This document shows positions 1 to 18,621 of a DNA stretch of 46,657 nt, piece after piece; position 1 is the first letter of the stretch; every line of letters starts with the position of its first letter. The stretch covers positions 1 to 46,657 of the forward strand of contig NZ_JAIEOF010000030.1 in the NCBI RefSeq assembly GCF_019750675.1. The letters are read 5' to 3'. The notes under the pieces were generated by a model that worked only from the letters and a program-made list of their open reading frames with translations, made no database searches and had not been told where the DNA came from. The translations under genes and the position numbers were made by a program. Source of the stretch: Methylobacterium sp. (GTDB lineage Bacteria; Pseudomonadota; Alphaproteobacteria; Rhizobiales; Beijerinckiaceae).

Positions 1-454
1 GAGCCGGGCGCCTGCCGTCGCGAAGCCCGTCTTGCCGGCACCCCGGCAGGCCTTGCAAATCTCAGCGTGGCCAAGAGCGGCGTCACACCGGATTCCCTCT
101 GACGCGTCGAACTCGTTGGACGGTGTGCGGGAGCGAGGCGGCGGCGCTTCACCGGGTGTGGTCGAGCCGAGCCGGCCAGGGTTCACCCTGCGTCCTGACG
201 CACGGCCGCGGCCCGTGGGCCTCTGAGATGGGCGTGTCTATCCGGGGCGCCCGGGACCACCGCAACGGCGGGATCCGGGTTTCTTCCCCGCCGCCTGACG
301 GCGGCTCCTCGCGGAACAACAAACCCGTCCCCCGCCGTCCTCCGCTGCGCTGCGGCCTGCCAAGGCAGGTGCGGCGCCGGGACGCCTCCGGCTCACCGAC
401 CGCCATCGAGGCCCCGACGGCGCGGCCGAGAGCACCGGAACGAGGATCATGACC
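1..454. other. Upstream non-coding region
   Basis: I see no convincing gene here. All open frames are short, arginine/proline-rich and typical of GC-rich shadow frames. The second half contains copy A of the structured repeat described separately. The region should carry the promoter and leader of the DUF736 gene that starts at 455. Confidence 0.5.
276..357 (+). repeat. Structured dispersed element, copy A
   Basis: The outer stem pairs CGGGTTT (276-282) with AAACCCG (321-327). It encloses a GCCGCC-TGAC-GGCGGC hairpin (290-305). Nine bases later comes the conserved box CCTCCGCTGCGCTGCGG (339-355), followed by a further small hairpin with arms near 355-367. Copies B and C share the layout. The outer stem here has different bases from theirs but still pairs, so the pairing itself looks conserved. 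It lies about 98 nt before the DUF736 start. Confidence 0.7.
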
Positions 455-826
455 ATGGCGACCATCGGCACCTTCACCCGCACCGAGAACGGCTTCACCG
501 GCAGCATCACCACCCTGACCATCCAGGCCACCAAGGTCGCGATCGTGGAGGAGAGCCGCGGCGGCGAGCACGCGCCGACCCACCGGATCTTCCTCGGCAA
601 GGCGGAGATCGGCGCCGGTTGGGCCAAGCGCTCGAGCGAGGGGCGGGACTACATCTCGCTCAAGATCGACGATCCGAGCCTGCCGGCTCCGCTCTTCGCC
701 GGCCTGTTCGCGGAGGAGGACGGCCGCACCCACTCGGTGATCTGGTCCCGCTCCACCCCGAAATCCGACCAGCCCTCGAAGAGCCGCTCCGAGGGTCGCT
801 CGAACGCGCGCGGTCGCCGGAACTGA
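455..826 (+). CDS. DUF736 family protein
   Basis: A 123-aa protein opening MATIGTFTRTENGFTGSI, the typical start of DUF736, a small single-domain family common on alphaproteobacterial plasmids and integrative elements. The fold region covers about residues 1-100 and ends in a basic Ser/Arg tail (SRSEGRSNARGRR) that could contact nucleic acid. No biochemical role is established for the family. An ATG at 449 lies only 3 nt after GAGG (442-445), whereas the ATG at 455 has 9-nt spacing and matches the family start, so I chose 455. It is the first gene after repeat copy A, in the predicted leading region of transfer. Confidence 0.85.
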   Translation: MATIGTFTRTENGFTGSITTLTIQATKVAIVEESRGGEHAPTHRIFLGKAEIGAGWAKRSSEGRDYISLKIDDPSLPAPLFAGLFAEEDGRTHSVIWSRSTPKSDQPSKSRSEGRSNARGRRN

Positions 827-841
827 ACCGAGGCCATCGCC

Positions 842-863
842 GCCCCGCCCGGCCGGGCGGGGC
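842..863. repeat. 22-bp perfect GC palindrome
   Basis: The core CCCCGCCCGG/CCGGGCGGGG is perfectly self-complementary over 842-863. It lies 16 nt after the DUF736 stop and 29 nt before the next start. It has no T-run, so it is more likely a processing hairpin, attenuator or weak terminator than a classical intrinsic terminator. Confidence 0.5.
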
Positions 864-891
864 CGCTCCAACGCCGCACGGAGACACGGAA

Positions 892-1140
892 ATGGCTTTC
901 GCCTTCGACACGCTCGGATATTCTAAGACCCTCCGCGCGGCCGGCATCTCGCCGAAACAGGCCGATGCGCATGCCGAGGCGGCCCGGGAGTTCATCATGC
1001 ACGAACTCGTCACCAAGGACGATCTGCGCACCGCCATGGAGCTTCAGACGCTCCAGATGACGGTGCGCCTCGGGGGCATCGTCGCGGCTGGCTTTGCTGC
1101 GGGCTTCGCTGCGCTCGCGGCCCTCATCAAGCTGACCTGA
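892..1140 (+). CDS. Small helical membrane-anchored protein (DUF1640-like)
   Basis: An 82-aa protein. Residues 1-58 are helical and charged (TLRAAGISPKQADAHAEA, then HELVTKDDLRTAMELQTLQM). A single hydrophobic segment follows at about 61-79. The layout resembles coiled-coil DUF1640-type proteins (helical head, TM tail), here much shortened. Function is unknown. The start at 892 follows the SD-like CGGAGACACGGAA; the open frame extends upstream to 619 but that part reads like non-coding sequence. It follows DUF736 by 65 nt on the same strand. Confidence 0.65.
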   Translation: MAFAFDTLGYSKTLRAAGISPKQADAHAEAAREFIMHELVTKDDLRTAMELQTLQMTVRLGGIVAAGFAAGFAALAALIKLT

Positions 1141-1267
1141 AGGGCAGCTCTCAGCCGCCGCCGCGCCTGGCACGGCGCGGCGGTGGTTGGAGGATGAGGC
1201 CGGGATGAATCCCGGCAAAGGCAGTGCCGGAGTCGGAGTGAGCCGGGGCGGGGTGACGGGAGATCAG

Positions 1268-1286
1268 GCCGGAGAGAGGCTCCGGC
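1268..1286 (+). promoter_or_regulatory. AGAGG-loop hairpin 1, upstream of ardC
   Basis: GCCGGAG (1268-1274) pairs perfectly with CTCCGGC (1280-1286) around loop AGAGG (1275-1279). It ends 22 nt before the ardC start. Two other genes (3906 and 4834) have hairpins with the same loop, different but compensated stems, and nearly the same distance to the ATG. Confidence 0.65.
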
Positions 1287-1308
1287 GCCCGTCGCGAAAG
1301 CTCCGCCG

Positions 1309-2328
1309 ATGGCCCGCCGCCCGTCCTCATCCCGGAAACCGTCTTCCGCGCGCGCCGACACCGCTCCAGCCCCACGCGTCGACCTGTACCAGCGCATCAC
1401 CGACACCATCGTCGCCCAGCTCGAGCAGGGCCGGGTGCCGTGGGTGCAGCCGTGGGGCGATCTGCCCGGCACCGCCGCCGTCGGCATGCCGCGCAACGCG
1501 GCGACGAACCGGGCGTATTCCGGCATCAACGTGATGTTGCTCTGGGCCAGCGGCACCGCCCTGGCCTACCCGACCCAGCGCTGGCTTACCTTCAAGCAGG
1601 CACTCGGGCTCGGGGGCTGCGTCCGCCGGGGCGAGAAGGGCACGCCCGTGGTCTACGCCGACCGCTTCACCCCGGAGCAGGAGCGCGAGCGGGCGCAGCA
1701 GAACGGAGAGGAAGCGCGCTCGATCGCCTTCCTGAAGCAGTACACGGTGTTCAACGCGGCGCAGTGCGACGGCTTGCCGGAGGATCTATACGTTCCGCCC
1801 CCGCCCGCGCGCGAGGATCTGATCGAGCCGCGTTTCCGCGCGCTGATGCAGGCCAGCGGCCTGACCATCCATCTCGGCGGCCAGATGGCGTTCTACCGCC
1901 CGGCCGACGACGCGATCGTCCTGCCGCCGCCGCAGGCCTTCCACGAGCCGGTGAACTTTCACAGGACCGCGGCGCACGAGATGAGCCACGCGACGGGAGC
2001 AGCCCATCGGCTCGCCCGCGACTTCACCGGCCGCTACGGCAGCGAAGGGTACGCGCGCGAGGAGTTGGTGGCCGAGATCTCGGCGGCCTATGTCTGCGCC
2101 AGCCTCGGGATCGTTCCGACCGTGCGCCACGCCGACTACATCGCCACATGGCTGGACGTGCTGCGCTCGGACCCCCGCGCCATCGTCCAGGCGGCGGGCT
2201 TGGCCAGCCGCTCGGCCGACTGGCTGCTCGGTCACCTTCCGGCCGATCTGGCCCTCGGCGATGGCGCTACCGCCGACGGCGGCGAGGAGGGAGCGGCCTC
2301 GGCCGAGCCCGAGCGGGAGGCGGCCTGA
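1309..2328 (+). CDS. ardC: ArdC-type antirestriction protein
   Basis: A 339-aa protein with the two-domain ArdC layout. The N-terminal ssDNA-binding domain (about residues 23-150) includes NRAYSGINVMLLW and RRGEKGTPVVYADRF. The C-terminal metallopeptidase-like domain has HEMSH at 223-227 and EELVAE at 251-256 as probable zinc ligands. In the family, ArdC (from plasmid pSA) protects incoming single-stranded DNA during conjugation. The predicted nick at 18556/18557 places this gene in the leading region, which fits such a role. It is preceded by an AGAGG-loop hairpin. Its stop TGA shares one base with the ATG of the next gene, suggesting translational coupling. Confidence 0.92.
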   Translation: MARRPSSSRKPSSARADTAPAPRVDLYQRITDTIVAQLEQGRVPWVQPWGDLPGTAAVGMPRNAATNRAYSGINVMLLWASGTALAYPTQRWLTFKQALGLGGCVRRGEKGTPVVYADRFTPEQERERAQQNGEEARSIAFLKQYTVFNAAQCDGLPEDLYVPPPPAREDLIEPRFRALMQASGLTIHLGGQMAFYRPADDAIVLPPPQAFHEPVNFHRTAAHEMSHATGAAHRLARDFTGRYGSEGYAREELVAEISAAYVCASLGIVPTVRHADYIATWLDVLRSDPRAIVQAAGLASRSADWLLGHLPADLALGDGATADGGEEGAASAEPEREAA

Positions 2329-3314
2329 TGCGCTTCAAGTCCTGGCCCCGGCCCACACCCTTCGAGGACACGCCGCGCAAACGCGCGGCCTACCGGCGCA
2401 AGAGGGAGCGCGAGCAGGCAGCCTTGCCGCTGTTCGCCCCGGCCATCGCCGAGCGCCAGCTCTGTGTGGCCGAGGAGATGGTCCGCCGCACCGGCCAGTG
2501 GGAGCGCCAGCAGCAGGAGGGACGCCGGCAGCGGGCCGCGTCCTGGCGCCGGGTCCGCGCCCGCCTGTTCGCCCTCGAGGGCGCCCGGCGCCGCGCGATC
2601 CGGGCGCTGTGGCGGGTCTGCCCGTATCCGGCCGACCCGAGCTACTTCGGCACCCTGCTCCATGAGATCGCGACCGGCCGGATCGATCCGGAGCGGCCGC
2701 CTTGGGGGGCGGCACACGCGCTGAATCCCCGCACGACGCCGAACCCGGCGGGCTTCGCCGAGGCGTTCCGGCAGATCGGCCAGCGCACGGTCGGCGGTGG
2801 CCGGAAGACCGTCGGCGCCGACGAGCGGCTGTTCTGCGGCAATCTCGGCTCGGGAATCCTGTTCCTGACCACGCGCGTACGGCTGATCGAGCCGAATGAG
2901 AGCTTCTACACCTCGTCGAGCCATCGCCTGCGCGACAGCCATGTCGGGAGCAGTGGGCATTGGGCCGACATCGAGGTGCGCGGCCCCTGCTCGGATGAGG
3001 AGTTCCGCCGGATCACCCGGTTGGCCCGGGCTGCCGACACCCGGCCGGTGGTCATGCGGCGCATCGACCCGATCGCCGGTCGGCCCGGCCGGGAGATCGA
3101 GCGCTCAGCGCCAACGGTCACTGGCGCTGACGCCGATCTTCCGGCCTTCCAGGCGCGCCAGTTCGATCGCGACCTGCGTCCAGAACCAAATCCGCCGTCC
3201 GAGCGGGCGCCGGGCCCGATGGCGGGCGATGTAATAGGCGTTGCTACCATGGCGGCGAAGCAGGACGCGGGCTCGTGCCCGTACCCGGGTCCATCGCCGA
3301 ACCCGCCGCCGTAG
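2328..3314 (+). CDS. Hypothetical protein coupled to ardC
   Basis: A 328-aa protein of unknown function. Residues 15-95 are strongly basic and helical, with many Arg/Gln. A folded-looking region follows at about 100-250, with GGGRKTVGADERLFCGNLGSG near its middle. The last ~65 residues are Pro/Gly-rich and look unlike the rest. That tail overlaps a minus-strand ORF (3105-3350) that reads as more protein-like, so the original stop may have been lost. The start ATG overlaps the ardC stop by one base. I recognise no domain with confidence. Confidence 0.7.
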   Translation: MRFKSWPRPTPFEDTPRKRAAYRRKREREQAALPLFAPAIAERQLCVAEEMVRRTGQWERQQQEGRRQRAASWRRVRARLFALEGARRRAIRALWRVCPYPADPSYFGTLLHEIATGRIDPERPPWGAAHALNPRTTPNPAGFAEAFRQIGQRTVGGGRKTVGADERLFCGNLGSGILFLTTRVRLIEPNESFYTSSSHRLRDSHVGSSGHWADIEVRGPCSDEEFRRITRLARAADTRPVVMRRIDPIAGRPGREIERSAPTVTGADADLPAFQARQFDRDLRPEPNPPSERAPGPMAGDVIGVATMAAKQDAGSCPYPGPSPNPPP

Positions 3315-3350
3315 CGGACACTTCATGATCGTAGCGCAGGCGCGGATCAA
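3105..3350 (-). CDS. Small basic hypothetical protein
   Basis: An 81-aa protein with a TTG start. The segment ARVLLRRHGSNAYYIARH followed by IWFWTQVAIELARLEG resembles a widespread small alphaproteobacterial family with the pattern RHG..A...A..RA......W..I..AI..L (recalled from memory, not searched). It partners the upstream ORF at 3347-3547, whose TGA overlaps this start in a TTGA junction. The gene overlaps the 3' end of the plus-strand gene 2328-3314 by 210 bp in antisense. Translation could instead begin at the ATG nine codons in. Confidence 0.5.
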   Translation of the reverse strand: MIRACATIMKCPLRRRVRRWTRVRARARVLLRRHGSNAYYIARHRARRPLGRRIWFWTQVAIELARLEGRKIGVSASDRWR

Positions 3351-3547
3351 GTGCCTGAATCCGAGGGCGCGCTGTCCGGAGGGCGCCAGCCAAGAATGTC
3401 GAGAATACGACCTAAATTGAGCAATGAACGAGTAAAGTAAGGCTCGTGCTTGCGCTGGTCGTGCTCAGACTTGATCTGTAGGTAGACGCTTCCAAGCTCG
3501 GTGAGATCCAGCGGACGAGCTTCGGCGGGATCTTGTGACGGCTCCAT
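3347..3547 (-). CDS. Small hypothetical protein, first of a minus-strand pair
   Basis: A 66-aa protein reading MEPSQDPAEARPLDLTELGS, then a helical stretch with IKSEHDQRKHEPYFTRSLL and ILDILGWRPPD. Its composition (Asp, Glu, Lys, Ile, Tyr) is unlike the Arg/Pro-rich shadow frames of this window. The ATG at 3547 has GGGGCAG upstream; the frame also extends to a GTG at 3661. The stop overlaps the start of the downstream ORF by 4 nt. Function is unknown. Confidence 0.45.
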   Translation of the reverse strand: MEPSQDPAEARPLDLTELGSVYLQIKSEHDQRKHEPYFTRSLLNLGRILDILGWRPPDSAPSDSGT

Positions 3548-3861
3548 CGGCTGCCCCACCGCAGGCCCGTGTCCGCGGTACGCCCCCGCAAACGAGCCTC
3601 GACCACCCACAGCCGGGGAGTTGGAAAACCGTGACAAGACGGTCCCTACGACCTTTAGCACCGGGGCGCCTGGACATGCGTCGCAGGCTCCCCGACCCGA
3701 AGGGTCAAGGATTCCGGTGCCGCAACGGCCGGCACCAACCGCTTGTCATGGGGTTTCCACGCCCCAGGGCGGCGCGTACCGCCCCGCGACCATGATAGGC
3801 GCCTGCCCGGCCTCATTCCAAGAGCCAGAGACGAGCTTTGCCGGGTAGAAGGATCGTCAAG

Positions 3862-3882
3862 GCCGAGAGAGAGGCTCTCGGT
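3862..3882 (+). promoter_or_regulatory. AGAGG-loop hairpin 2, upstream of ORF 3906
   Basis: CCGAGAG (3863-3869) pairs with CTCTCGG (3875-3881), extended by a G-T wobble, around loop AGAGG (3870-3874). It ends 23 nt before the ATG at 3906. The loop and distance match hairpins 1 and 3, while the stem bases differ in a compensated way. Confidence 0.65.
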
Positions 3883-3905
3883 CCCGCGATCCCGAGGAGG
3901 CCGAC

Positions 3906-4169
3906 ATGCCCCAGGCATCGCACTTCACCATGACCCTCGACCTTGCGGTCCAGGATCGCTGCGCCGTTCTCGAAGCGGCGGCCACGCATTTGACCCGCAT
4001 CGGTACGGTCGCGTCGGTCGAGGCGGCCCGCGCCCATCTCGCCGACGACGTGCCGAAGGCCCTCTCGGTCCTGATCGGCCTGCGCAACCTTGCCTGGGCC
4101 GGAGTCACGGCGACGAAGATCGACTGCACGCCCAGCGAGGCCGAAGGCGCCGCCCAGGGCGGGCTCTGA
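3906..4169 (+). CDS. Small hypothetical protein
   Basis: An 87-aa, probably cytoplasmic, helical protein (MTLDLAVQDRCAVLEAA, then HLADDVPKALSVLIGLRNLAW). No family is recognised. The start is well supported by a strong Shine-Dalgarno, GAGGAGG, 6 nt before the ATG. It stands between the minus-strand pair (3105-3547) and ORF 4256 and is preceded by an AGAGG-loop hairpin shared with ardC and the parB-like gene. Shared control with those genes is an inference from the hairpin. Confidence 0.7.
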   Translation: MPQASHFTMTLDLAVQDRCAVLEAAATHLTRIGTVASVEAARAHLADDVPKALSVLIGLRNLAWAGVTATKIDCTPSEAEGAAQGGL

Positions 4170-4189
4170 GACGATCGGCAGACCGATCC

Positions 4190-4247
4190 GGCCTCCCTCC
4201 GAGCACGAGGGAGGCCCTTCGCCCGTGCGGGATCGCCGCGGCGAAGG
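4190..4247 (+). promoter_or_regulatory. Two stacked hairpins, the second masking the SD of ORF 4256
   Basis: The first hairpin pairs GGCCTCCCTC (4190-4199) with its exact complement at 4207-4216. The second pairs CCTTCGCC (4216-4223) with GGCGAAGG (4240-4247). The second right arm contains most of the Shine-Dalgarno AAGGAG (4244-4249) of the gene starting at 4256, so the folded form should reduce its translation. Whether it responds to a signal is unknown. Confidence 0.5.
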
Positions 4248-4255
4248 AGTGAACC

Positions 4256-4714
4256 ATGGCCGAGTACGTGATGACCACCGTGACCATCGGGGGGCTGCTG
4301 AGGGGGCAGGGGGCGGTCGAGGCGCTGATCGAGGCGGCGGGAGCGTATTTCGAGGACGCCGAGATCGGGGTCCGCGACGCCCTGGCCAGGGGCAGCAGCA
4401 TCACGTTCGAGGCCCTCCAGAATTTCGGAAACACCCCCGACCTCGACGCCTTCTGCCGGGCGCACGGCCTGACCTGGCATCGGTCGTGGGTCGCCCAGGT
4501 CGGGCAGTTCGGGGCCGGTCTGGAATACTGGCGCCCTGGCCTGGCGGGGCCGCTCGAGGAAGCCGCCGACGAGGGCGGCACGCCGATGATGACGTTGGCG
4601 GCCCTGAGGCGCTGCCACCAGGGCGGTCAGACCCTGGCCGAGTTGATCGATCGTCTCGGCCAGGCCGACGCCGCCACCGTCCCGCCTCTGAGCTTGGCGG
4701 CGGACAGCGCCTGA
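4256..4714 (+). CDS. Hypothetical protein
   Basis: A 152-aa acidic protein with no signal peptide or membrane segment. Its features include VTIGGLLRGQGAVEALIEAA near the start, the aromatic stretch GLTWHRSWVAQVGQFG at about 79-94, and a helical end (TLAELIDRLGQADAATV). No family is recognised. The start follows AAGGAGTGAACC, a good Shine-Dalgarno that a hairpin can occlude. It lies 119 nt upstream of the parB-like gene on the same strand and may be co-transcribed with it. Confidence 0.65.
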   Translation: MAEYVMTTVTIGGLLRGQGAVEALIEAAGAYFEDAEIGVRDALARGSSITFEALQNFGNTPDLDAFCRAHGLTWHRSWVAQVGQFGAGLEYWRPGLAGPLEEAADEGGTPMMTLAALRRCHQGGQTLAELIDRLGQADAATVPPLSLAADSA

Positions 4715-4785
4715 TCCGGCTCGGCCCGGCCCCGCGGCTCCCCTCCCAGAGGCAGAGGGGGGCTTCGCCTGCGTGAGGGTTTCGA

Positions 4786-4808
4786 GGCTGGGAGAGAGGT
4801 TCCCGGCC
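4786..4808 (+). promoter_or_regulatory. AGAGG-loop hairpin 3, upstream of the parB-like gene
   Basis: The arms 4786-4794 and 4800-4808 form nine pairs, two of them G-T wobbles, around loop AGAGG (4795-4799). It ends 25 nt before the ATG at 4834. It is the longest of the three related hairpins. Confidence 0.65.
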
Positions 4809-4833
4809 GCCCGCACACAGGGACGATGCCACC

Positions 4834-7080
4834 ATGACCAGCCCGAAGGCCACCACCAAGACCGCCGCCAAGATCACGCTGACCGAGGCGACCGCGATCC
4901 CGTTCGAGAAGCTGTCCCTGAGCCAGGCGAACGTGCGCCGGGTGGCCGGGGACATGAGCATCGAGGACCTGGCCGAGGACATCGCCCGTCGAGGCCTGCT
5001 CCAGTCCTTGAGCGTGCGCCCGATCCTCGACGAGCAGGGCCAGGAGACCGGTCGCTACGAGGTGCCGGCCGGCGGCCGTCGCTTCCGCGCGCTCGAGCAC
5101 CTCGTGAAGACCCGGCGCATGACCAAGGGCATGAAGGTTCCCTGCATCGTCCGCCCGGCCGACAGCGCGATCAGCGCGACCGAGGACTCGATCGCCGAGA
5201 ACGCCATGCGCGAGGCCCTGCACCCACTCGACCAGTTCCGGGCGTTCAAGGCGCTCGCCGACGGCGGTATGCCCCTGGCCGACATCGCCGCCCGGTTCTT
5301 CGTGTCGGAGAAGATCGTGACCCAGCGCCTGCGGCTGGCCGGGATCAGCCCGGTGCTGCTCGACGCCTATGCGGCCGGGGAGCTGACCCTGGAATGCCTG
5401 ATGGCGTTCTCCGTCACCGAGGACCAGGAGCGCCAGGTCAAGGTGTGGGAGGCCCTGTGCAAGCGGGGCGGGGTGAGCAACTGGTCGATCCGGCAGGCCC
5501 TGACCGATCGCACGGTGAGCGTGGGGGATGCCCGCGCCCGCTTCGTCGGCGAGGAGGCCTACGTGGCTGCTGGCGGCACCGTCCTGCGCGACCTGTTCGC
5601 CGAGCGCGGCGACGGCTGGTTCCAGGATGCGGCCCTGCTCGACCGGCTGGCCGAGGAGAAGCTGGCTGCCGTCGGCGCGGAGGTGGCCAAGGAGGGCTGG
5701 AAGTGGATCGAGGTGTCGCTGTCGCTGATGACGGGGCGCACCTACGGCTTGCGCATCCTGCGGACCCGCTCCGAGCTGAGCGAGGCCGAGGAGGCGGCCT
5801 TCGAGGCCGCGGTCGCCAGCTACGACGCGCTCAACGACGAGTACGGCTACGGCGACGACCTCCCGGACGAGGTCGCCGAGCGGCTGGCCGCGCTGGAGGC
5901 CGAGATCGCCGAGTACGAGCTGCGCTCCACCATCTACGACCCGGCCGACATCGCGATCGCCGGGGCCTTCGTCAGCCTCGACTACGATGGCCGACCGACG
6001 GTGAGGCGCGGCTACGTCCGGCCGGAGGACGAGCCCGTCGCAGCCCCGGAGAGTGAGGCCGCGGCGGCGGGGGCGGACTCCGAGGCCGACGCCATCGGTG
6101 CGGGCTCCACGGAGGCTGGGGCGGATGGGCGGACCGTCCGACCGGAGCCGAGCGTGATGCGCACGATCATCACCATCGGCGGCGGCTCGGCGTCGTCGAG
6201 CCCCACGGCCGAACCGGAGGAGGCCGACCGGCCGCTCTCGGAGCAGCACCGGACCGAGCTGACCAGCTACCGCACCATCGCCCTGCGCGAGGCTTTGGCC
6301 GACGATCCCGAGGCCGCCTTCATCGCGGTCCTGCACGCCATGGTGATCCGCGTCATCGGCCTCGGCTACCGCACCGGCACCTGCCTCGAAGTCGTGACCA
6401 CCTCGAGCCGGGTCGACCACACCGTGCAAGGCCTCGACGCCTTCCGGCCGGCGACCGCCCTCGATGCGCGGCGCGAGGCCTGGGCCAAGCGCCTGCCGGA
6501 GGACCACCACGCGATCTGGGACTTCCTGATCGCCCTGGCTCCGGAGGAGCGCACCGAGCTGTTCGCGCTCTGCGCGGGCTTGAGCGTCAACGCCATGCAC
6601 AGCCCCTACGACCGGCGTCTCGACGCGCTCCCGCACGCCGACCGGCTGGCCCACCTCGTCGGGCTCGACATGACCCGGGACTGGACGCCGACGGCGGCCA
6701 ACTACTTTGGCCGCGTGACCAAGACCCGGATCCTCGCCGCCATCCGCGAGGCCAAGGGCGAGGACACCGCGCGCCTGCTCGAAGGTCTCAAGAAGGGGGA
6801 CATGGCGCGCGAAGCCGAGCGGCTGATGGCCGGAAGCGGCTGGCTGCCCGAACTGCTGCGCACCCCCGGCTTGAGCGCCGAGCCGGCAGCCGGCCAGAGC
6901 GAGACCGCCGTATCCGACAAGCCGACGGCGACTGAGGATGTCGCGCTGCCGCCGTTCCTCGGCGAAGCCGTGGAGGAAGCCGCATCCGAGCCGAGCGAGC
7001 CGCTTCCGCCCTTCCTCGACGGCGAAGACGGCTCGGCCGACGGAGATCCCGACATGGGGTACGCCATCGCCGCCGAGTGA
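4834..7080 (+). CDS. ParB/RepB/Spo0J-type nuclease-domain protein (long plasmid form)
   Basis: A 748-aa protein. The ParB N-terminal domain (about residues 20-130) has the CTP-binding-type motif GGRRFRALEHL at 80-90 and ENAMREALHPLDQF from 122. A helix-turn-helix follows (about 145-172, LADIAARFFVSEKIVTQRL). The long C-terminus (about 390-748) is partly Ala/Glu-rich and low complexity, then helical. It is far longer than a partition ParB (about 300 aa) and has no parA beside it. It belongs with the long ParB-domain proteins found next to ArdC and Strawberry-notch genes on plasmids, so a role in early plasmid establishment or regulation is more likely than segregation. That role is inferred. 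Confidence 0.85.
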   Translation: MTSPKATTKTAAKITLTEATAIPFEKLSLSQANVRRVAGDMSIEDLAEDIARRGLLQSLSVRPILDEQGQETGRYEVPAGGRRFRALEHLVKTRRMTKGMKVPCIVRPADSAISATEDSIAENAMREALHPLDQFRAFKALADGGMPLADIAARFFVSEKIVTQRLRLAGISPVLLDAYAAGELTLECLMAFSVTEDQERQVKVWEALCKRGGVSNWSIRQALTDRTVSVGDARARFVGEEAYVAAGGTVLRDLFAERGDGWFQDAALLDRLAEEKLAAVGAEVAKEGWKWIEVSLSLMTGRTYGLRILRTRSELSEAEEAAFEAAVASYDALNDEYGYGDDLPDEVAERLAALEAEIAEYELRSTIYDPADIAIAGAFVSLDYDGRPTVRRGYVRPEDEPVAAPESEAAAAGADSEADAIGAGSTEAGADGRTVRPEPSVMRTIITIGGGSASSSPTAEPEEADRPLSEQHRTELTSYRTIALREALADDPEAAFIAVLHAMVIRVIGLGYRTGTCLEVVTTSSRVDHTVQGLDAFRPATALDARREAWAKRLPEDHHAIWDFLIALAPEERTELFALCAGLSVNAMHSPYDRRLDALPHADRLAHLVGLDMTRDWTPTAANYFGRVTKTRILAAIREAKGEDTARLLEGLKKGDMAREAERLMAGSGWLPELLRTPGLSAEPAAGQSETAVSDKPTATEDVALPPFLGEAVEEAASEPSEPLPPFLDGEDGSADGDPDMGYAIAAE

Positions 7081-7367
7081 GGGCCAGGGACGGGCGCGAG
7101 CCCTGCATTCGTGCCCGTTTCGGTCCCGATCTCCGATTGCGTCCTGCATGACCGCGTCGGGGTCGGGGTCAACGGGCAAGCCGTGGGGTTCGTCAACGAC
7201 ACAACCCGGCAACACCGTGAGAGATGGGCGGATGTCATGGCTACACGCTCGCAAGGCTGAATAAACCGGGTCGGTTCACGAGAGTGAGAGGAGGCCGGAC
7301 GGGAGTAAGCCGACAGTTGGACAGAGAAAGTCCTGCGGGTCGGCCGAACCCCGTCAGGAGGCCGTCC
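7081..7367 (+). other. Intergenic leader before the helicase gene
   Basis: No gene is seen here. The Strawberry-notch frame stays open into this stretch from 7224, but the sequence before 7368 does not look coding. GGAC (7320-7323) and GTCC (7331-7334) can form a weak hairpin with loop AGAGAAA 33 nt before the start, possibly a distant relative of the AGAGG hairpins. The gene's Shine-Dalgarno is AGGAGG (7356-7361). Confidence 0.4.
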
Positions 7368-10300: not shown

Positions 10301-11723
10301 CACCGGGCGCAGCTACCACGCCGACCGGAGCGCGAAGAACCGGCGCCTGCGCGTCCACTACCTGCTCGAGGCCGGCTGGAAGGCCGACGCGGCCGTCCAG
10401 GGCCTCGGGCGGACCAACCGCACCAATCAGGCGCAACCGCCGCTGTTCCGGCCGGTCACCACCGACGTGAAGGGCGAGAAGCGCTTCCTCTCCACCATCG
10501 CCCGGCGCCTCGATACCCTCGGGGCGATCACCCGCGGCCAGCGCCAGACCGGCGGTCAGGGCCTGTTCCGGGCAGAGGACAATCTGGAAGGCCACTACGC
10601 CGCCACGGCCCTGCGCCAGCTCTACTGGGCGATCGTGCGCGGTGAGATCGAGGGCTGCTCGCGCGAGACCTTCGAGGCGATGACCGGGCTGTCCCTGGTC
10701 AACGACGCTGGCTGCCTGCTCGACGAACTGCCGCCGATCGGCCGCTTCCTCAATCGGGTGCTGGCCCTGCGCATCGCCATGCAGAACCGCCTGTTCGCGG
10801 CGTTCGAGGAGCGGCTGGCCCTGGTGATCGAGGGCGCGATCTCGGCCGGAGTCTACGACGTCGGCGTCGAGGTGCTGACGGCCGAGTCGTTCACGGTCAC
10901 GGATCGCGAGGTGGCCTACACCCATCCCGAGAGCGGCGCGCGCACCCACCTCCTGACCATCGCCGAGCGGCGCCGGCTGCATCCGCTCGACTTCGACGAC
11001 GCCCTCGCCCTGGTCGCCGACGGCTACCGGCCCATGGTCAACGCGAAGTCCGGGCGGCCGGCGCTGATGGGCAAGGCCGCGAGCGAAACCCGGGAGGATG
11101 GTTCCGTGGTGGCGCGGGTCCGGCTGGTACGCCCGCTCCAGCGCCAGATCCTCGACCGGGACACGTTCGACCGCTCGCGGTTCGAGGAGGTGACGCCGGA
11201 GGCCTTCGCGACGGCTTGGCGCCAGGAACTCGCGAGCCTGCCTGAGTTCGAGGAACGCACCCTCTACATGGTCACCGGGCTGCTACTGCCGATCTGGGAC
11301 CGGCTGCCCGGCATCGACATGCGGGTGTTCCGCCTCGTCACCGACGCGGGCGAGCGCATCGTCGGCCGGGTGGTCGAGCCCGAGGATCTTCAGGTCACCC
11401 GCGAGCGGCTCAACCTCGGCGCCGGCGCGACGATGGCCCCGGCCGAGGCCTTCGCCGCCGTGCTCGGCGGGCGCGCCAGCCTGCATCTGGCCGGGGGGCT
11501 TCAGGTCAAGCGAGCCCGCGTGATGGGCGAGGATCGGGTGGAGGTGATCGGGGCGAGCGAGGGGGCCAGAGCCGGGCTGAAGTCGATCGGGCTGTTTGCC
11601 GAGGTGATCGCCTACCGCACCCGCCTGTTCATCCCGGCCGGCGAGCGCGGGGCCGCCATCCTGGCCGGGGTGTTCGAGCGCCATGCGTTGCTGCGTTGCG
11701 TCGCCGCGTCCGCTCACGCTTAA
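7368..11723 (+). CDS. Strawberry-notch family helicase with N-terminal methyltransferase-like domain
   Basis: A 1451-aa protein. The N-terminal part carries an adenine-methyltransferase-like domain: SAM-binding EPSAGTG at 148-154 and catalytic-type NPPF at 213-216. After a Pro/Ala linker (about 330-400) comes the Strawberry-notch helicase core: Walker A GTGAGKGR with K508, DEAH at 610-613, and helicase-C motif QGLGRTNR at 1011-1018. The rest (to 1451) is the Sbno C-terminal region. Bacterial Sbno-like proteins are frequent on plasmids and phages near ArdC and ParB-like genes; their role is poorly known, but DNA remodelling or anti-restriction during transfer is plausible. I chose ATG 7368 for its AGGAGG, although the frame is open from 7224. 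Confidence 0.9.
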   Translation: MNVSIRTPHLYSTALAPSPAPEALFRAGTRLADRLAQGGAIDTEGLRATMEAVCGGSDADGLWLWKDAYEAGEIAQVLFLRRFWPAIRAKAATPAARLALLTRITAMLPTQTRRSEESEAFQQFSTPLALGFVAALAAGLRPGERVLEPSAGTGLLAVHAELAGARLHLNELAATRAGLLAQLFPADAVTRHDAAQIHDRLDADVIPDVVLMNPPFSVAAGVEGRYRDATATHLRSALARLAPGGRLVAITGKGFRPDRPSSAGAFAAMAERGGRLVFSAGLSGRAYAKHGTTVDVRLSVFDRMPEGEAGAQATPLGLYADPAALLEAVLSELPPRLRAIPAPAPAPRSAIPGLVRRPAVARPTAPRPAPAAADEAVAPIAYTVIEELPATLVAEAALYEAYALETLRIEGAQPHPTPLVQSTAMASVRLPRPTHAPRLPAPVVTEGLLSECQLETVIYAGAAHDRHLPGHWTIDETGTILTAAAADAEGAARFRQGFFLGDGTGAGKGRQVAGIILDNWMQGRRRALWVSKSDALLEDAQRDWRHLGQEPLQIVPLSRFAPGKPVTLAEGILFTTFATLRGGSRSGAGSRLDQVCDWLGPDFDGVIALDEAHALANAAAGSGDRGVVEASQQGKAGLGLQYRLPDARVLYVSATGAVTVEKLAYAHRLGLWGGGSFPFPARTDFVGAMQQGGLAAMEVLARDLKALGLYTARSLSYAGVEVEMLDHALTPAQTAIYDAYADAFQVIHTHLDAALKASGVTGTSGTLNRAAKSAARSAFESSKQRFFNHLLTAMKCPSLIADIEAQIEAGHAAVIQIVSTGEALMERRLAGIPSSEWGDLQVDVTPREYVIDYLAHAFPTQLYEPYTDADGNLQSRPVTDDEGRPVQCREAVEARDGLIEHLCGLEPVQSALDQILHHFGAGAVAEVTGRSRRIVRQTGKDGVDRLVLQNRPAGSNLTETQAFQDDEKRILVFSDAGGTGRSYHADRSAKNRRLRVHYLLEAGWKADAAVQGLGRTNRTNQAQPPLFRPVTTDVKGEKRFLSTIARRLDTLGAITRGQRQTGGQGLFRAEDNLEGHYAATALRQLYWAIVRGEIEGCSRETFEAMTGLSLVNDAGCLLDELPPIGRFLNRVLALRIAMQNRLFAAFEERLALVIEGAISAGVYDVGVEVLTAESFTVTDREVAYTHPESGARTHLLTIAERRRLHPLDFDDALALVADGYRPMVNAKSGRPALMGKAASETREDGSVVARVRLVRPLQRQILDRDTFDRSRFEEVTPEAFATAWRQELASLPEFEERTLYMVTGLLLPIWDRLPGIDMRVFRLVTDAGERIVGRVVEPEDLQVTRERLNLGAGATMAPAEAFAAVLGGRASLHLAGGLQVKRARVMGEDRVEVIGASEGARAGLKSIGLFAEVIAYRTRLFIPAGERGAAILAGVFERHALLRCVAASAHA

Positions 11724-11748
11724 TACGCGAACCCGACGGAGGCCGACC

Positions 11749-12807
11749 ATGCCGACCCATCCCACCGCCGCGGATCTCTCTCGCCAGCTCGCCGACAACG
11801 TCGAGGCGTTCTGCCGGCGTTACCTCTCCAACGGCTCCCGATCCGGCCGCTGGTGGTGCGTCGGCGATGCGTTCAACACGCCGGGCGAGTCGATGTACGT
11901 GCGCCTCACCGGCCCGAGCCGGGGCAAGGGTGCCCGGGGCAAATGGGCGGACGGCGCCACCGGGGAGCACGGCGACCTGCTCGACGTGATCCGTCTCCAG
12001 CGCGGCAGCGACTGGAAGGATGCCATGGCCGAGGCGCGGGCGTTTCTCAGCCTGCCCCCACCTCCGGAGATGGAGCGGGCTCGTCCGATCCCGGAGGCGC
12101 GGGACTCGACCGAGGCGGCGCGGCGAATGTGGCGTTACGGCCGGTCGCTCGCGGGCAGTCCGGCGGCGGCCTATCTGCGCTCGCGCGGGATCGAGCGGGC
12201 GCTCGGTCTGCCCGCCCTGCGGTTCCATCCGCGCTGCCTGTACCGGGCCTCGCGCAAGCATCCGGGGCCGGACACCTGGCACCCGGCCCTGCTCGCCGCC
12301 GTCACGGATCTCGCGGGCACCGTCATGGGCGTCGGCCGGACCTGGCTCGCCGCGGACGGGCGCGGCAAGGCGGATCTCCCGAAACCGCGTCGGGCGCTCG
12401 GCAACCTCATCGGCCACGGCGTGCGCTTTCCCGGCACGGTCGTGGATCTCATGGTGGCCGGGGAGGGGGTCGAGTCGGTGGCGTCGGTCCACCGCCTGAT
12501 GCCCACGGTGCCGCATGTGGCCGCGCTCTCGGCCGGGCATCTCGGCGCCCTGATCCTTCCTCCCGGCCTGCGCCACCTCTACATCGCCCGCGACGCCGAC
12601 GAGGCCGGCGAGCGGGGGGCGGCGATCCTGCGCCGGCGCGCCGAAGCCGAGGGCATCCTGGTGAGCGATCTGATCCCTTGCGAGGACGACTTCAACCGCG
12701 ACCTCTGCCATCTCGGACCGCGCGATCTCGCCCTGCATCTGGCGCCGCAGCTCGATCCGAACCACGCGGTAAGCCACCTCCGGTTCGAGGAGGCGGCGGC
12801 GGCCTGA
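11749..12807 (+). CDS. Toprim-domain protein (DUF7146/primase-like)
   Basis: A 352-aa protein. The N-terminal region (about 1-100) has FCRRYLSNGSRSGRWWCVGD and GKWADGATGEHGDLLDVIRL, as in the zinc-binding/primase-like part of plasmid Toprim proteins. The Toprim domain (about 225-330) has the acidic motif VAGEGVESV and the metal-binding DADEAGERGA. The family is linked to DNA priming or replication of mobile elements. The start at 11749 follows GGAGG with good spacing. It lies 25 nt after the helicase gene and is probably in the same operon. A role in complementary-strand synthesis in the recipient is inferred. Confidence 0.85.
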   Translation: MPTHPTAADLSRQLADNVEAFCRRYLSNGSRSGRWWCVGDAFNTPGESMYVRLTGPSRGKGARGKWADGATGEHGDLLDVIRLQRGSDWKDAMAEARAFLSLPPPPEMERARPIPEARDSTEAARRMWRYGRSLAGSPAAAYLRSRGIERALGLPALRFHPRCLYRASRKHPGPDTWHPALLAAVTDLAGTVMGVGRTWLAADGRGKADLPKPRRALGNLIGHGVRFPGTVVDLMVAGEGVESVASVHRLMPTVPHVAALSAGHLGALILPPGLRHLYIARDADEAGERGAAILRRRAEAEGILVSDLIPCEDDFNRDLCHLGPRDLALHLAPQLDPNHAVSHLRFEEAAAA

Positions 12808-13154
12808 TCCGGTCGGTCCGATCGGGGCATCCGGGTGAGGCCGAGCCGGCTGTCCCGGCCCGGAGGGAGAGCCGGCGTCCACGGCCTTCTCGAGAGGGCG
12901 ACGGGTGCCGGGTCCGGAGCCTTGGGTGCAACGCTCCCGGCCGACGATTTTCCGCCGCCGCCTGACGGCGGCTTTGCATCGCGAAGCAAAATCGACGGCC
13001 TTGGAGCCGTCCTCCGCTGCGCTACGGCCCGCGCCGCCGCATCGCGAAAGGTGCGATGCGGAGGGGTGCGCGGGTGCGCCAGGCCCCGGGCCCGGCCTTG
13101 GGTCGCCACGAAGGCCGCGATGGACGCGGTCCCCGGACCCGATGGAGCCCAGCG
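12808..13154 (+). other. Intergenic region holding repeat copy B
   Basis: No gene is seen. The stretch contains structured element copy B (12941-13029) and, after it, a strong hairpin CCGCATCGC-loop-GCGATGCGG at about 13036-13060. It probably supplies the promoter or leader of the DUF2493 gene. Confidence 0.5.
12941..13029 (+). repeat. Structured dispersed element, copy B
   Basis: CGATTTT (12945-12951) pairs with AAAATCG (12988-12994). Beyond an A-A mismatch, CCG (12941-12943) pairs with CGG (12996-12998). The inner GCCGCC-TGAC-GGCGGC hairpin is the same as in copy A. The box CCTCCGCTGCGCTACGG (13011-13027) has one difference from copies A and C. It ends 125 nt before the DUF2493 start. Confidence 0.7.
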
Positions 13155-14084
13155 ATGCTCGACCACGCGATCCACGATCTCGATGCCGACCTGCCGACGG
13201 CCGACGCGACCCTGCTCGAGGAACTGGCGGTCACCGGTTATCGCCCGTTCGAGGAGCACGACGATCCCCGGCCGCTCCCGGCCAAGCGCGCGATGGACCA
13301 GGGGCTTCAGGTGGCGATGAGCGCCCTCGAACAGGCCTTCGCCGACACCCGTCTGGAGGACGACCTCGAGGACGTGCTGTGGGGCTTCGTCAACGTCTTC
13401 CACCGCCGCGTCGAGCAGATCGAGCGCAAGCTCGACGAGAACGAGCAGGCGCAGCGCGCCAGCCAGCGCGAGCAGGACGGCAGCGAGGTGCTGTCGGTCG
13501 AGCTGGAGCGCCTTACCGCCCTCGGGCTGACGCTGTCGGAGCGCCGCAACGCCTTCGAGTACGCCCGGGACACCGCGGCCAACCTGTTCACCCGCACCAC
13601 CCGGTCGCTGTGGCGCCCGCATTCCGGGTCGCGGGTCAACCGCGCCACCATGACCGCGGCGATGATCGACTCGCGCGACTACATCAGCGCGCGGCGGCGG
13701 GCCGAGACCGAGATCCACCTGCCGCAGGGCACCCGCATCGCCTTCACCGGCGGCAAGGAGTACCAGGACGTCACGGTGATCTGGGACATCCTCGACAAGG
13801 TCCGGGCCAGGCATCACGACATGGTGCTGCTGCACGGGGGCGGCGAGGGTGCCGAACTGATCGCGGCGAAGTGGGCCGAGAACCGCAAGGTCGCCCAGGT
13901 GGTGTTCAAGCCGGACTGGAAGCGCCACAACCGGGCCGCCCCCTTCCGGCGCAACGACACGATCCTGGAGCAGATGCCGATCGGCATCATCCACTTCCCC
14001 GGCGGCGGCATCTCGGACAATCTCGCCGACAAGGCGCTGGCGAAGGGCATCCCGGTCCGGCGTGGCGTGAAGGCCGGCGCTTAG
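13155..14084 (+). CDS. DUF2493 (YspA/SLOG-like) protein
   Basis: A 309-aa protein. Residues 1-185 are helical and acidic, including VFHRRVEQIERKLDENEQAQ. The C-terminal DUF2493 domain (about 193-305) opens RIAFTGGKEYQDVTVIW and continues VLLHGGGEGAELIAAKWA and IIHFPGGGISDNLADKA. DUF2493 belongs to the SLOG nucleotide/ligand-binding superfamily (YspA, cpYpsA-like), with a Rossmann-like fold thought to bind or process a nucleotide ligand. The gene is common on alphaproteobacterial plasmids but its function is unknown. The start follows GGAGCCCAGCG. It overlaps the convergent gene 14081-14548 by 4 bp. Confidence 0.85.
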   Translation: MLDHAIHDLDADLPTADATLLEELAVTGYRPFEEHDDPRPLPAKRAMDQGLQVAMSALEQAFADTRLEDDLEDVLWGFVNVFHRRVEQIERKLDENEQAQRASQREQDGSEVLSVELERLTALGLTLSERRNAFEYARDTAANLFTRTTRSLWRPHSGSRVNRATMTAAMIDSRDYISARRRAETEIHLPQGTRIAFTGGKEYQDVTVIWDILDKVRARHHDMVLLHGGGEGAELIAAKWAENRKVAQVVFKPDWKRHNRAAPFRRNDTILEQMPIGIIHFPGGGISDNLADKALAKGIPVRRGVKAGA

Positions 14085-14548
14085 GCGCCGGCCCCCTCGG
14101 GGCCGGGGCTCCAGGCCGTTCCGCGCAACGCAGCGGCATGACGCATGTAGGCACGCTCGAAAGCCGCCTGAACGCGCGGGTCGGCCAGCAAATCCGACAC
14201 AGACTCGGAGATCCGGTCGTAGTCGGTGCGAGGAATCCGCACCTCGGTGTGCTTGTCGCGGTAGATCACCAGCCGCCGCTCATCCTCGTCGCCCTCTTCC
14301 GAGAGGACGAACCCGTAGCGCTCACAGGCAATCCGATCCTCGTCACGCCGCTGGAACCCCTCGATCAGATCGCCGACATCATCGACACCGCTCGCCACGA
14401 TCTGCGCAAAGCCGAGATCGACCATGATCCGCACGTCGGCGGGTTCGGCGACGGCCAGCGAGACGCGGGTGGCGTGAGCCAGCACCGACTTGAGCGGGGT
14501 CCAAATTGGTTCCGGACCCAGTGACGAAGCGGTTTCAGGCAGGGTCAT
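14081..14548 (-). CDS. Hypothetical protein
   Basis: A 155-aa acidic protein of unknown function. It is predicted cytoplasmic, with VDLGFAQIVASGVDDVGDLIEG in the middle, a charged beta-like stretch (GFVLSEEGDEDERRLVIYRD) and a helical end. It is the second gene of a minus-strand pair, 9 nt after ORF 14558-14806. Its Shine-Dalgarno GAGG overlaps the upstream stop. It converges on the DUF2493 gene and shares 4 bp with it. Confidence 0.65.
   Translation of the reverse strand: MTLPETASSLGPEPIWTPLKSVLAHATRVSLAVAEPADVRIMVDLGFAQIVASGVDDVGDLIEGFQRRDEDRIACERYGFVLSEEGDEDERRLVIYRDKHTEVRIPRTDYDRISESVSDLLADPRVQAAFERAYMRHAAALRGTAWSPGPEGAGA
14088..14106. terminator. GC hairpin at the convergent junction
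   Basis: CCGGCCCC (14088-14095) pairs perfectly with GGGGCCGG (14099-14106) around a 3-nt loop, directly after the DUF2493 stop. There is no T-run, so termination would be inefficient or factor-dependent. It also lies inside the 3' end of the minus-strand gene. Confidence 0.35.
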
Positions 14549-14557
14549 CCGGCATCC

Positions 14558-14806
14558 TCACTGGATCGGCGGCCAGTGTCGGTTTCGTTCTCGTATTGCG
14601 TTGAGTTCGTTCGCCTCGTTCCGCAAGTGATCGAGGATGTGTTTCCGGGCACGCGGGCAGCCTGTCGATTTCCAGGTCTTGGCAAACTCGACGGTTTGGC
14701 GATGCCATTGGCCGGGACCCCTTGGATCCCGAAACACGGCGGGATCGACGCCGAGAACGGCCGCGATCTCGGCAAGAAGCTGATCGGTGGAAGTCGAGCG
14801 GGGCAT
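14558..14806 (-). CDS. Small hypothetical protein
   Basis: An 82-aa protein with segments STDQLLAEIAAVLGVDPAVF, GQWHRQTVEFAKTWKSTG and HILDHLRNEANELNAIRER. It is helical and soluble. The N-terminal part has the spacing of a short DNA-binding or adaptor helix bundle, but no family is recognised. It is the first gene of the minus-strand pair with 14081-14548. An AT-richer stretch (14820-14870) upstream probably holds its promoter. Confidence 0.6.
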   Translation of the reverse strand: MPRSTSTDQLLAEIAAVLGVDPAVFRDPRGPGQWHRQTVEFAKTWKSTGCPRARKHILDHLRNEANELNAIRERNRHWPPIQ

Positions 14807-15372
14807 GATGGACGGGTCGATAATGGAGAATGAAGCGCTTTCCCTTGGGTTGTATCACGCTCCATAGGGTCGTGCACCGTTGAGGTGGGAGCATCCCGCG
14901 TCAAGCTGGAACGACCCTCCCCAGCCGCGGAGCCTCACCTGTCGAGGGCGGTGCCGGCGGCATCCGGCGCGGGTGCCATCGCGAGGAGCGGCAGTGCGTC
15001 GGGGGGCGCCCTCCCGAGCCAGGCTGGAGGCCTGTCGAGGGTCGGAGACGGCCAGGGCGTCCCGTCCGGCCAGCGCAGTGGCCGGTCGACCCGACCCCGG
15101 CGGAACCGGCGGTGAACCGCGGCAGCGACGTTCGCCACAGCGACGGACCGTCCCAACACGATGGCGACAAGGGAACAGACGCCGTCACCGTCCGCAACCG
15201 TCCGGCCCGACGATTTTCCCCTGGCGCTGCGCGCCATTCCTCGCGGGACAAAATCGTCGGTCCGGCCGGTCCTCCGCTGCGCTGCGGCCCTTCGGGTGCG
15301 GCCGGCGCCGCCGCCTGTTTGGGGGGTCGCATCGCGCAGGGACGGTCCCGAGCGCCTCAGGAAACCCCACCG
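14807..15372. other. Intergenic region with the promoter of the minus-strand pair and repeat copy C
   Basis: No convincing gene is seen on either strand; the open frames are Arg/Pro/Gly-rich. The part next to 14806 is AT-richer and should contain the minus-strand promoter. The right half holds structured element copy C. Nothing else is recognisable between about 14890 and 15200. Confidence 0.45.
15207..15289 (+). repeat. Structured dispersed element, copy C
   Basis: CCGACGATTTT (15207-15217) pairs perfectly over 11 bp with its complement at 15250-15260. The inner hairpin GGCGC-TGC-GCGCC differs in sequence from copies A and B but keeps its place. The box CCTCCGCTGCGCTGCGG (15271-15287) is identical to copy A. 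It ends 83 nt before ORF 15373. Confidence 0.7.
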
Positions 15373-15546
15373 ATGCCGCGCCCCACCTCGACCCTCCCCG
15401 CCCACGCCCGCCTCGCCCTCGTCACCCACGTCGCGGAACTGGAGGCCGAGCTGGCCTCGGTCTCCTGCCCGCGCGAACGCCGCACCATCGCCGCCGAGTT
15501 GAAGGCCGCCCGGAGCGCGGTCAGCCAGCTCTCCCCGGAGGGCTGA
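15373..15546 (+). CDS. Small helical protein
   Basis: A 57-aa protein made of two helices (ARLALVTHVAELEAELASV, then RERRTIAAELKAARSAVSQL). The AGGAAACCCCACCG before the ATG is a usable Shine-Dalgarno. The frame is open far upstream, but that part overlaps repeat C and does not look coding. Function is unknown. A GC hairpin follows 15 nt after its stop. Confidence 0.5.
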   Translation: MPRPTSTLPAHARLALVTHVAELEAELASVSCPRERRTIAAELKAARSAVSQLSPEG

Positions 15547-15560
15547 GGCCCTTCCCCCAG

Positions 15561-15578
15561 GGCCGCCTTAGGGCGGCC
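15561..15578 (+). terminator. Hairpin terminator-like structure
   Basis: GGCCGCC (15561-15567) pairs with GGCGGCC (15572-15578) around TTAG, followed by TTCGATCT. The T-content is low, so efficiency is uncertain. It separates the small plus-strand gene from the convergent traG. Confidence 0.45.
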
Positions 15579-15750
15579 TTCGATCTCGACGGAAGAGGGG
15601 GCCTGACCCTGGTTCGTGCCTGGCGATGGCCCCGGTGGGCGCGAGCATCGCTAGGCGGGATCCGTGAGATCGTCACGCGCCGTTTCAGCGACCGGCGCAC
15701 CATTCGACAGGACGGAATTCGCGACGGTCCGCGCCGCGCAAAGCGGCCAA

Positions 15751-18231: not shown

Positions 18232-18597
18232 GAATTTTGAATTCCATTGTCGGTTGCGACGTTGGAAAATTACCAGCCAGCTTACGCAGGGCAAGCCAAG
18301 CTTTCGGCGAAGAACGGGGCCCCCAAGTGTCTGTGGTGATCCAACCACACCGGCGAGCCTCACCTCCCGGCCTGGCGCGCGTCGGGGAGCGGGCTCCGGC
18401 TTCAGAACCAGAGCTGTTCACCTCCCGTCCAACCGCTGGAATTTCGGTCGCGCTGGCCGGCTCCGCCGGACGGATGGGCGGCCCCGATAGGGGCCTGCTC
18501 GAAGCGGAGCTACGGCGCGCAGCGCCTCCGCAAAGTCCCATGAGTTTACGAATGGGCGCACTTATGGGGATATTGCATATCCCTGTGCTTCGGGCTA
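18232..18597. other. traC-traA divergent intergenic region
   Basis: A stretch of 366 bp between divergent traC and traA, the classical oriT position in Ti-type systems. Besides the nic region it contains the hairpin GGCCCC-GATA-GGGGCC (18480-18495) and an AT-rich patch next to traC, probably its promoter. No gene is seen. Confidence 0.7.
18554..18583 (-). other. oriT: Origin of transfer (nic region), RSF1010/MOBQ type
   Basis: Read on the minus strand, an inverted repeat GGGATAT-GCA-ATATCCC (18583-18567) is followed two bases later by TAAGTGCGCCC (18564-18554). This matches the order in RSF1010/R1162, where an inverted repeat is followed by TAAGTGCG^CCC. By that analogy the nick lies on the minus strand between 18557 and 18556. 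The transferred strand would then start with CCC and run toward lower coordinates, traC side first. The inverted repeat ends 14 nt before the ATG at 18598. Confidence 0.85.
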
Positions 18598-18621
18598 ATG
18601 GCCAAGCTCGGGGGTCCGCGC

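Follow-up and report, generated by a model that had tools for sequence, protein, structure and literature searches.

The stretch of DNA analysed here (the window) comprises 46,657 nucleotides (nt) from a Methylobacterium sp. and corresponds to contig C460 of its 4.92-Mb draft genome. It is part of a conjugative plasmid, and its positions 12700-15600 match p1METDI of Methylorubrum extorquens DM4 at 100% identity. The window carries three copies, A, B and C, of a structured element that precedes plus-strand genes and that we consider a candidate for function in single-stranded DNA (ssDNA). From the left, the gene order is a DUF736 gene (449..826, plus strand; Pfam PF05284, 7.9e-32), an ArdC-like zincin, a ParB-like protein, a strawberry-notch helicase, a Toprim/DUF7146 primase-like gene (11683..12807, plus; Pfam), a DUF2493 gene (13155..14084, plus; named from the p1METDI annotation of the identical stretch) and a hypothetical open reading frame (ORF) of 57 amino acids (aa) (15373..15546, plus), which is annotated in p1METDI and found in related plasmids. 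To the right of this ORF lie traG/D/C on the minus strand, followed by a predicted oriT and then by traA, encoding the TraA relaxase/helicase (18598..22311, plus; named from p1METDI). Gene names in the window come from Pfam and, in part, from the p1METDI annotation. Copy A precedes DUF736, copy B precedes DUF2493 and copy C precedes the 57-aa ORF, each being the first gene after its element.

A preliminary description of this sequence had reported three copies of the element on one strand, and these proved to be real, at the places and with the stems it gave. The extents it assigned stand for the middle part of each copy; the full ends, as defined by closing helices, lie wider. The complete element is an imperfect fold of 196-236 nt composed of a long-range closing helix, a central hairpin and box hairpins. 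Element A (type I; 218..413, minus) is closed by GGCCTC at 218-223 and GAGGCC at 408-413, with its central hairpin at 276..327 (minus) and its box, a CCGC/GCGG hairpin, at 339..355 (plus). Element B (type II; 12882..13117, minus) is closed by CGGCCTTC at 12882-12889 and GAAGGCCG at 13110-13117, with the central hairpin at 12942..13000 (minus) and a box with one mismatch at 13011..13027 (plus). Element C (15145..15348, minus) is closed by GGACCGTCCC at 15145-15154 and GGGACGGTCC at 15339-15348, with the central hairpin at 15204..15260 (minus) and the box at 15271..15287 (plus). The predicted minus-strand fold of each copy is a single closed, multi-branched structure holding the central hairpin and the box hairpins. 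Across loci from many genera, conservation runs from a block mostly 60-78 nt upstream of the 5' anchor of the central hairpin to a block past the box, and in A, B and C these two end blocks are mutually complementary. The mean longest perfect match of a block to its own partner was 8.42 (type II), 7.91 (type I) and 10.11 (type C), against 8.26, 7.36 and 9.18 for other copies of the same type and 7.52, 6.93 and 7.56 for copies of other types.

The downstream start codons, at 449, 13155 and 15373, do indeed lie 83-125 nt after the ends given in the preliminary description, and the second closing block ends 35 nt (A), 37 nt (B) and 24 nt (C) before the annotated start. An automatic search across the family gave a median distance of 32 nt for type II and 3 nt for type I (upper quartiles 36 and 40); since it took the first in-frame-open ATG, we prefer the window distances as a measure of start-codon spacing. 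By eye, the type II consensus holds an additional in-frame ATG approximately 36 nt before the annotated DUF2493 start, within a small 3' hairpin just past the closing helix; the window copy differs here. In eight loci (L076, L091, L093, L097, L099, L104, L105 and L181) the apical hairpin has taken up ~15-37 nt of inserted sequence, in several cases palindromic repeats (CCACCCC...GGGGACCCC), and its loop thus appears to tolerate inserts. The internal loop of the central hairpin keeps TCGCG in both types, often as the self-complementary TCGCGA, through which loop-loop pairing between two copies on the same strand is conceivable.

Homologues were sought with R1, a covariance model built on nine type II/C copies that include B and C and exclude A. 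R1 was limited to these types because MAFFT seeds mixing types I and II, which were dropped, misaligned the 5' arm. In the window R1 matched 276-356 (A, E-value 1.3e-8), 12942-13028 (B, 2.4e-17) and 15208-15288 (C, 3.3e-13). The box is weak evidence when taken by itself, since 16 of 100 shuffles equalled the three matches (up to three mismatches) found in the window. In the 4.92-Mb genome the exact box is found at three places, always in the window and on the plus strand, and the reversed pattern has no match. Among 199 genomes of the family, our own included, 28 box places were found: three are those of the window, nine coincide with a whole or partial element and 16 have none, with R1 reaching at best E 1.6e-4 in the 42.5 kb around these 16 places, on box-containing matches. 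The box was accordingly rejected as a marker; the signal that exceeds chance is the whole element.

The three copies belong to a large family of structures carried by plasmids and mobile elements of the Alphaproteobacteria, a family which we found undescribed: no account of such an element appeared in the titles and abstract openings of the literature matches listed. R1 matched in 64 of 297 genomes of the order, in 26 of 385 genomes of the class, including three that had been found before, and, at E 1e-3, in 26 of 299 genomes of the phylum, many of which had also been found before. The sole match outside the class, in G1100, is weak (3e-4; the 299 genomes include an unstated number from outside the class), and the class itself was deduced from named plasmid records. 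A blastn search with a Methylocystis relative of B matched 79 plasmid records and no phage record, and 28 of 30 places among the matches listed carried no annotated feature. A single contig (G108:C203) carries as many as six copies, of which one reaches no better than E 5e-4. A fourth copy in our own genome (E 3.1e-9) lies on contig C378 (locus L069, G000:C378) together with DUF736, ArdC, ParB-like and strawberry-notch genes; this contig is probably a second related plasmid. In five further plasmid regions with DUF2493, R1 matched at or before the DUF2493 place in L185 (3.6e-5) and L186 (7.5e-5), before DUF736 in L187 (3.1e-9), partially in L188 (4.2e-4) and weakly in L115 (0.06).

The genes that follow the element are mostly of two kinds. 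On 58 contigs, 86 of 93 copies precede, within 450 nt, DUF2493 (52) or DUF736 (34); as the loci were picked by element matches, these are shares of elements and not of DUF2493 or DUF736 genes. Six of the seven remaining copies were read, and each stands before a small ORF (57, 64 or 75 aa) or a divergent DUF736; the seventh, G233:1577101, lay outside that reading. The small ORFs are less certain, as GC-rich DNA yields ORFs easily. Second DUF736 copies near the relaxase mostly showed no element. DUF736 genes have been described on all Mesorhizobium integrative and conjugative elements (ICEs) compared in PMC8627217.

Within the family the pairing is conserved and the sequence is not. In an R1-fitted alignment of 84 distinct copies, both partners vary in 18 of 20 pairs, with a covariation score of 0.371 against 0.110 for shuffled alignments and 0.093 for the best slid partner. 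A model-free MAFFT alignment of 35 chosen type II copies gave a comparable picture (12 of 19 pairs double-sided; 0.363 vs 0.110), with 96.1% of cells paired when read on the minus strand and 92.6% on the plus. In the apical hairpin of type II, C-G and G-C swap freely, with 334 Watson-Crick cells against 227 expected and 15 mismatches against 123 expected.

The mismatches that do occur indicate which strand folds. A folded RNA or single DNA strand tolerates G·U or G·T and not A·C, and the complementary strand shows the reverse cell. We counted anchored pairs in 62 type II and 52 type I copies, as folds made by RNAalifold for each strand choose their own wobble pairs; RNAalifold itself favours the minus strand and was set aside for this reason. 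In the outer stem, A·C on plus (G·T on minus) was observed at 39 cells against 50.7 expected (type II, positions 1-9) and 36 against 42.9 (type I, positions 1-6), and G·T on plus at 5 against 17.3 and 3 against 18.9, ratios of 0.29 and 0.16; these stem ranges were fixed after the data were seen. Other outer-stem mismatches are also present (32 and 46 cells), and in the apical hairpin wobble is too rare to distinguish the strands (7 vs 4 and 5 vs 1). On trees built from neighbouring coding DNA, 43 gains (20+23) led toward G·T on minus and 8 (5+3) toward G·T on plus, or 37 vs 8 when counted by pair type; reversions to Watson-Crick pairs numbered 11 from A·C on plus and none from G·T on plus. The sequences are related, and counting events lessens the effect of kinship without abolishing it. 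Strand-biased mutation was ruled out as the cause of the asymmetry because G>A changes per G and C>T changes per C are about equal in neighbouring coding DNA (0.050 vs 0.056; 0.061 vs 0.054). Since the wobble cells are mostly G·T on minus, folding selection appears to act on the minus strand.

The minus strand is also, by the predicted nic motifs of two relaxase families, the strand that would be transferred. Between traC and traA it carries an inverted repeat followed by ATAAGTGCG|CCC (18550..18583, minus; predicted cut between 18557 and 18556), which matches the core of the MOBQ oriT consensus (PMC3832669) save for the base after CCC. The TraA nic motif lies on minus in seven of seven regions (six distinct plasmids, L031 being the window), and a wider count of seven distinct TraA loci in nine regions found it on minus in all. 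In 14 loci, the minus strand carries TTTATCCTG|C at a distance of 144-148 nt upstream of DUF3363 genes, in most cases following an inverted repeat; we take these genes to be RlxS-like relaxases and their nic motif to be RP4-like. YATCCTGH has 18 occurrences on minus and a single one on plus in 37 DUF3363 regions, duplicates included, the others lacking an exact match. With nic on minus, transfer beginning at this site would move the module first, which places the copies on the predicted leading side, as the preliminary description had proposed. Its further claim, that the predicted transferred strand (T-strand) is the template of the downstream genes, agrees with the nic motifs, and by the wobble cells the same strand would be the one that folds.

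This polarity holds across relaxases. A relaxase was found on 35 of 58 contigs, and 61 of the 62 copies whose own module has a relaxase point toward it; annotated plasmids with a third relaxase type have the same layout. Two G233 copies with no relaxase of their own in range were excluded from the 62. Upstream relaxases are less well sampled, because the upstream flanks fetched (~10 kb in most of L069-L108, less than ~2 kb in most of L165-L184) were shorter than those downstream (up to ~28 kb). The preliminary description had named copies in both orientations, positions away from leading regions and missing covariation as grounds for abandoning it; the shared polarity, the predicted leading-side positions and the double-sided pairs are the opposite of that picture. 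In the window (15751-46657), the Ti-type TraA relaxase stands alongside Dot/Icm-like (MPF_I) secretion genes in the p1METDI annotation. One secretion-system ORF (35649-36848) contains tandem repeats with 15-nt spacing (35757-35986) that encode a Gly-Tyr-rich stretch.

We propose a working model. At the level of sequence comparison, the family, its conserved pairing, the apparent folding selection on minus, the identity of minus with the T-strand by nic motifs, the position before genes and the polarity are established. Because the conserved pairing is on the strand predicted to enter the recipient, the element probably acts while the plasmid is single-stranded, and it is best read as a putative ssDNA-activated expression element, Frpo-like in its working. 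In this model the T-strand would enter the recipient 5'-first from nic at ~18557/18556, and each element on it would fold into its closed multi-branched structure. RNA synthesis would be drawn to the fold, immediately ahead of the next gene on the plus strand, with the T-strand as template, so that DUF2493, DUF736 and the small ORFs of the establishment module could be expressed while the complementary strand is still missing. The same RNA may serve as a primer for the second strand, and conversion to duplex DNA would abolish the fold. A single-strand promoter would need such features: a T-strand that is predicted to fold strand-specifically, on the leading side, in elements repeated close before genes that it templates. 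We hold with moderate confidence that these are structured elements working in ssDNA, with the folded T-strand recruiting RNA synthesis before the next gene.

Several observations weigh against this model. No canonical -35/-10 and no enriched pair of sigma70-like boxes was found in the folded part. One inverted duplicate (G017:C6; L079 8014 (+)) points away from the relaxase; the copy set held 78 of 87 matches, eight plasmid copies and this one having been dropped and the latter re-added as the inverted exception. By eye, the DUF2493-proximal places of L187 (2639-2905) and L188 (2849-3085) keep the closing blocks and the box without the central hairpin. Positions 10-12 of the outer arm lean the opposite way, with G·T on plus at 22 cells at position 11 in type II and at 7, 11 and 8 cells at positions 10-12 in type I, and sums over positions 1-11 are 93 vs 56 (43 vs 27 and 50 vs 29 by type); the fall in Watson-Crick cells at positions 10-12 leads us to see an internal loop here. 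Finally, folding energy favours the minus strand in 55 of 62 and 45 of 52 copies, yet shuffles carry much of that bias, and single-sequence folding energy was rejected as a strand test. By energy alone, A and C of the window fold better on minus and B slightly better on plus.

The promoter scan compared sigma70-like sites (score >=8) with 20 dinucleotide shuffles, an earlier round having used one mononucleotide shuffle per sequence; it assumed a linear spacing of 16-18 nt, so that boxes split between helices would escape it. On the plus strand, sites were found in 2 of 62 type II copies (3.6 in shuffles) and in 16 of 52 type I copies (5.0 in shuffles, maximum 7 in 20). The type I sites lie 150-179 nt after the 5' anchor, past the fold and close to the start codon of DUF736, where the sequence is homologous and conserved. 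The excess may reflect only conserved coding sequence, and it neither proves nor refutes a promoter. A bolder extension, which we put forward tentatively, is that the ssDNA structures form a class-wide family whose start sites are recognised without sigma70 -35/-10 boxes, for example by the module's own Toprim/DUF7146 primase or another factor, so that the shape of the incoming strand would switch on establishment genes in plasmids and ICE-like elements that differ in relaxase and secretion system.

The strongest rival explanation is a single-strand origin (sso/ssi), in which the folded T-strand would be a primer site for second-strand synthesis by RNA polymerase, a host primase or the Toprim/DUF7146 primase, and proximity to genes would be secondary. 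Such origins are orientation-specific folded ssDNA (PMC4595007). T-strand polarity and strand-specific folding fit this explanation equally well, the orientation being specific to the transferred strand, and the primase-like gene starts ~1.2 kb upstream of B and stands directly before most type II copies. Up to six copies per contig would, however, be superfluous for priming alone, nor does priming call for sites this close to gene starts, which in the window lie 24-37 nt from the closing helix. Because the copies are repeated and each precedes a gene, expression fits better than priming alone, and we regard the origin as a possible but rather unlikely account. One element could serve both expression and priming, and the title of the original Frpo paper reportedly speaks of one element serving both ends.

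Explanations that place the function in RNA or in duplex DNA fare less well. The preliminary description had also allowed for leader RNAs. For a structured 5' leader of the downstream mRNA, acting as riboswitch, attenuator or thermometer, the position in the 5' region of genes, the ability of the plus strand to form most of the same pairs and the slightly better plus-strand energy of element B (-92.8 vs -90.1) can be cited. This alternative is not supported by the wobble counts, in which the G·U-type cells of the plus strand, the mRNA strand, are depleted in the outer stem and A·C is tolerated; the tree-based gains point the same way, and Rfam gave no match at gathering score in the window (at a relaxed threshold, one match, E 0.67, in 12900-15420). 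We consider a leader RNA improbable. An antisense RNA read from the minus strand across gene starts would produce the same wobble pattern, but minus-strand sigma70-like sites were not enriched in the 300-nt stretches scanned, which exclude the gene interiors beyond (4 of 62 vs 3.6; 1 of 52 vs 5.5), and the conserved polarity toward nic with different relaxases would be left unexplained, making it, if anything, slightly more improbable still. Conserved TTCC and TCGCG loop sequences, together with MucR genes near the element in some plasmids, could suggest that a regulator such as MucR binds the element as a double-stranded operator or cruciform. A double-stranded site, however, needs neither stems whose sequence changes with pairing kept nor strand-asymmetric wobble cells, and of all the explanations weighed we find this one the hardest to credit. 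Expression activated by ssDNA stays the preferred reading.

If this reading is correct, DUF2493 and DUF736 would probably be the first establishment genes to be expressed from rhizobial and methylotroph plasmids and ICE-like elements, and early zygotic expression outside the enterobacteria becomes directly testable. The wobble asymmetry, in turn, offers a strand-resolved signature, readable from sequence, of DNA that would act as ssDNA in the recipient.

The closest known systems are the Frpo/ssi single-strand promoters described in the leading regions of F and ColIb-P9 (PMC9849209 and PMC11541004). The new elements resemble them in lying in the leading region, upstream of leading genes for which the T-strand is the template by predicted nic, in the T-strand stem-loop fold, which here rests on comparative wobble evidence as folding energies are not decisive, and in being present more than once on a plasmid, at distances of some kb. 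They differ in fronting DUF2493 and DUF736 and in being multi-branched with a long-range closing helix. The Frpo fold restores -35/-10 boxes (PMC9849209), unlike the new element, in whose folded part no canonical boxes were seen; we call it Frpo-like for that reason and do not file it as Frpo. Like the structured leader RNAs of Rfam, it is a covarying fold before genes, but its wobble pattern indicates the non-coding strand. With sso1 of ICEBs1 (PMC4595007) it shares an orientation-specific structure on a conjugative element that would be active as ssDNA, while differing in its repetition directly before gene starts, in its alphaproteobacterial hosts and in a second-strand role that is putative. 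Overall, single-strand promoters are established for the F plasmid, with candidates elsewhere proposed by sequence and structure searches (PMC9849209 and PMC11541004); what is new here is a large alphaproteobacterial family with apparent selection for pairing specifically on the predicted transferred strand.

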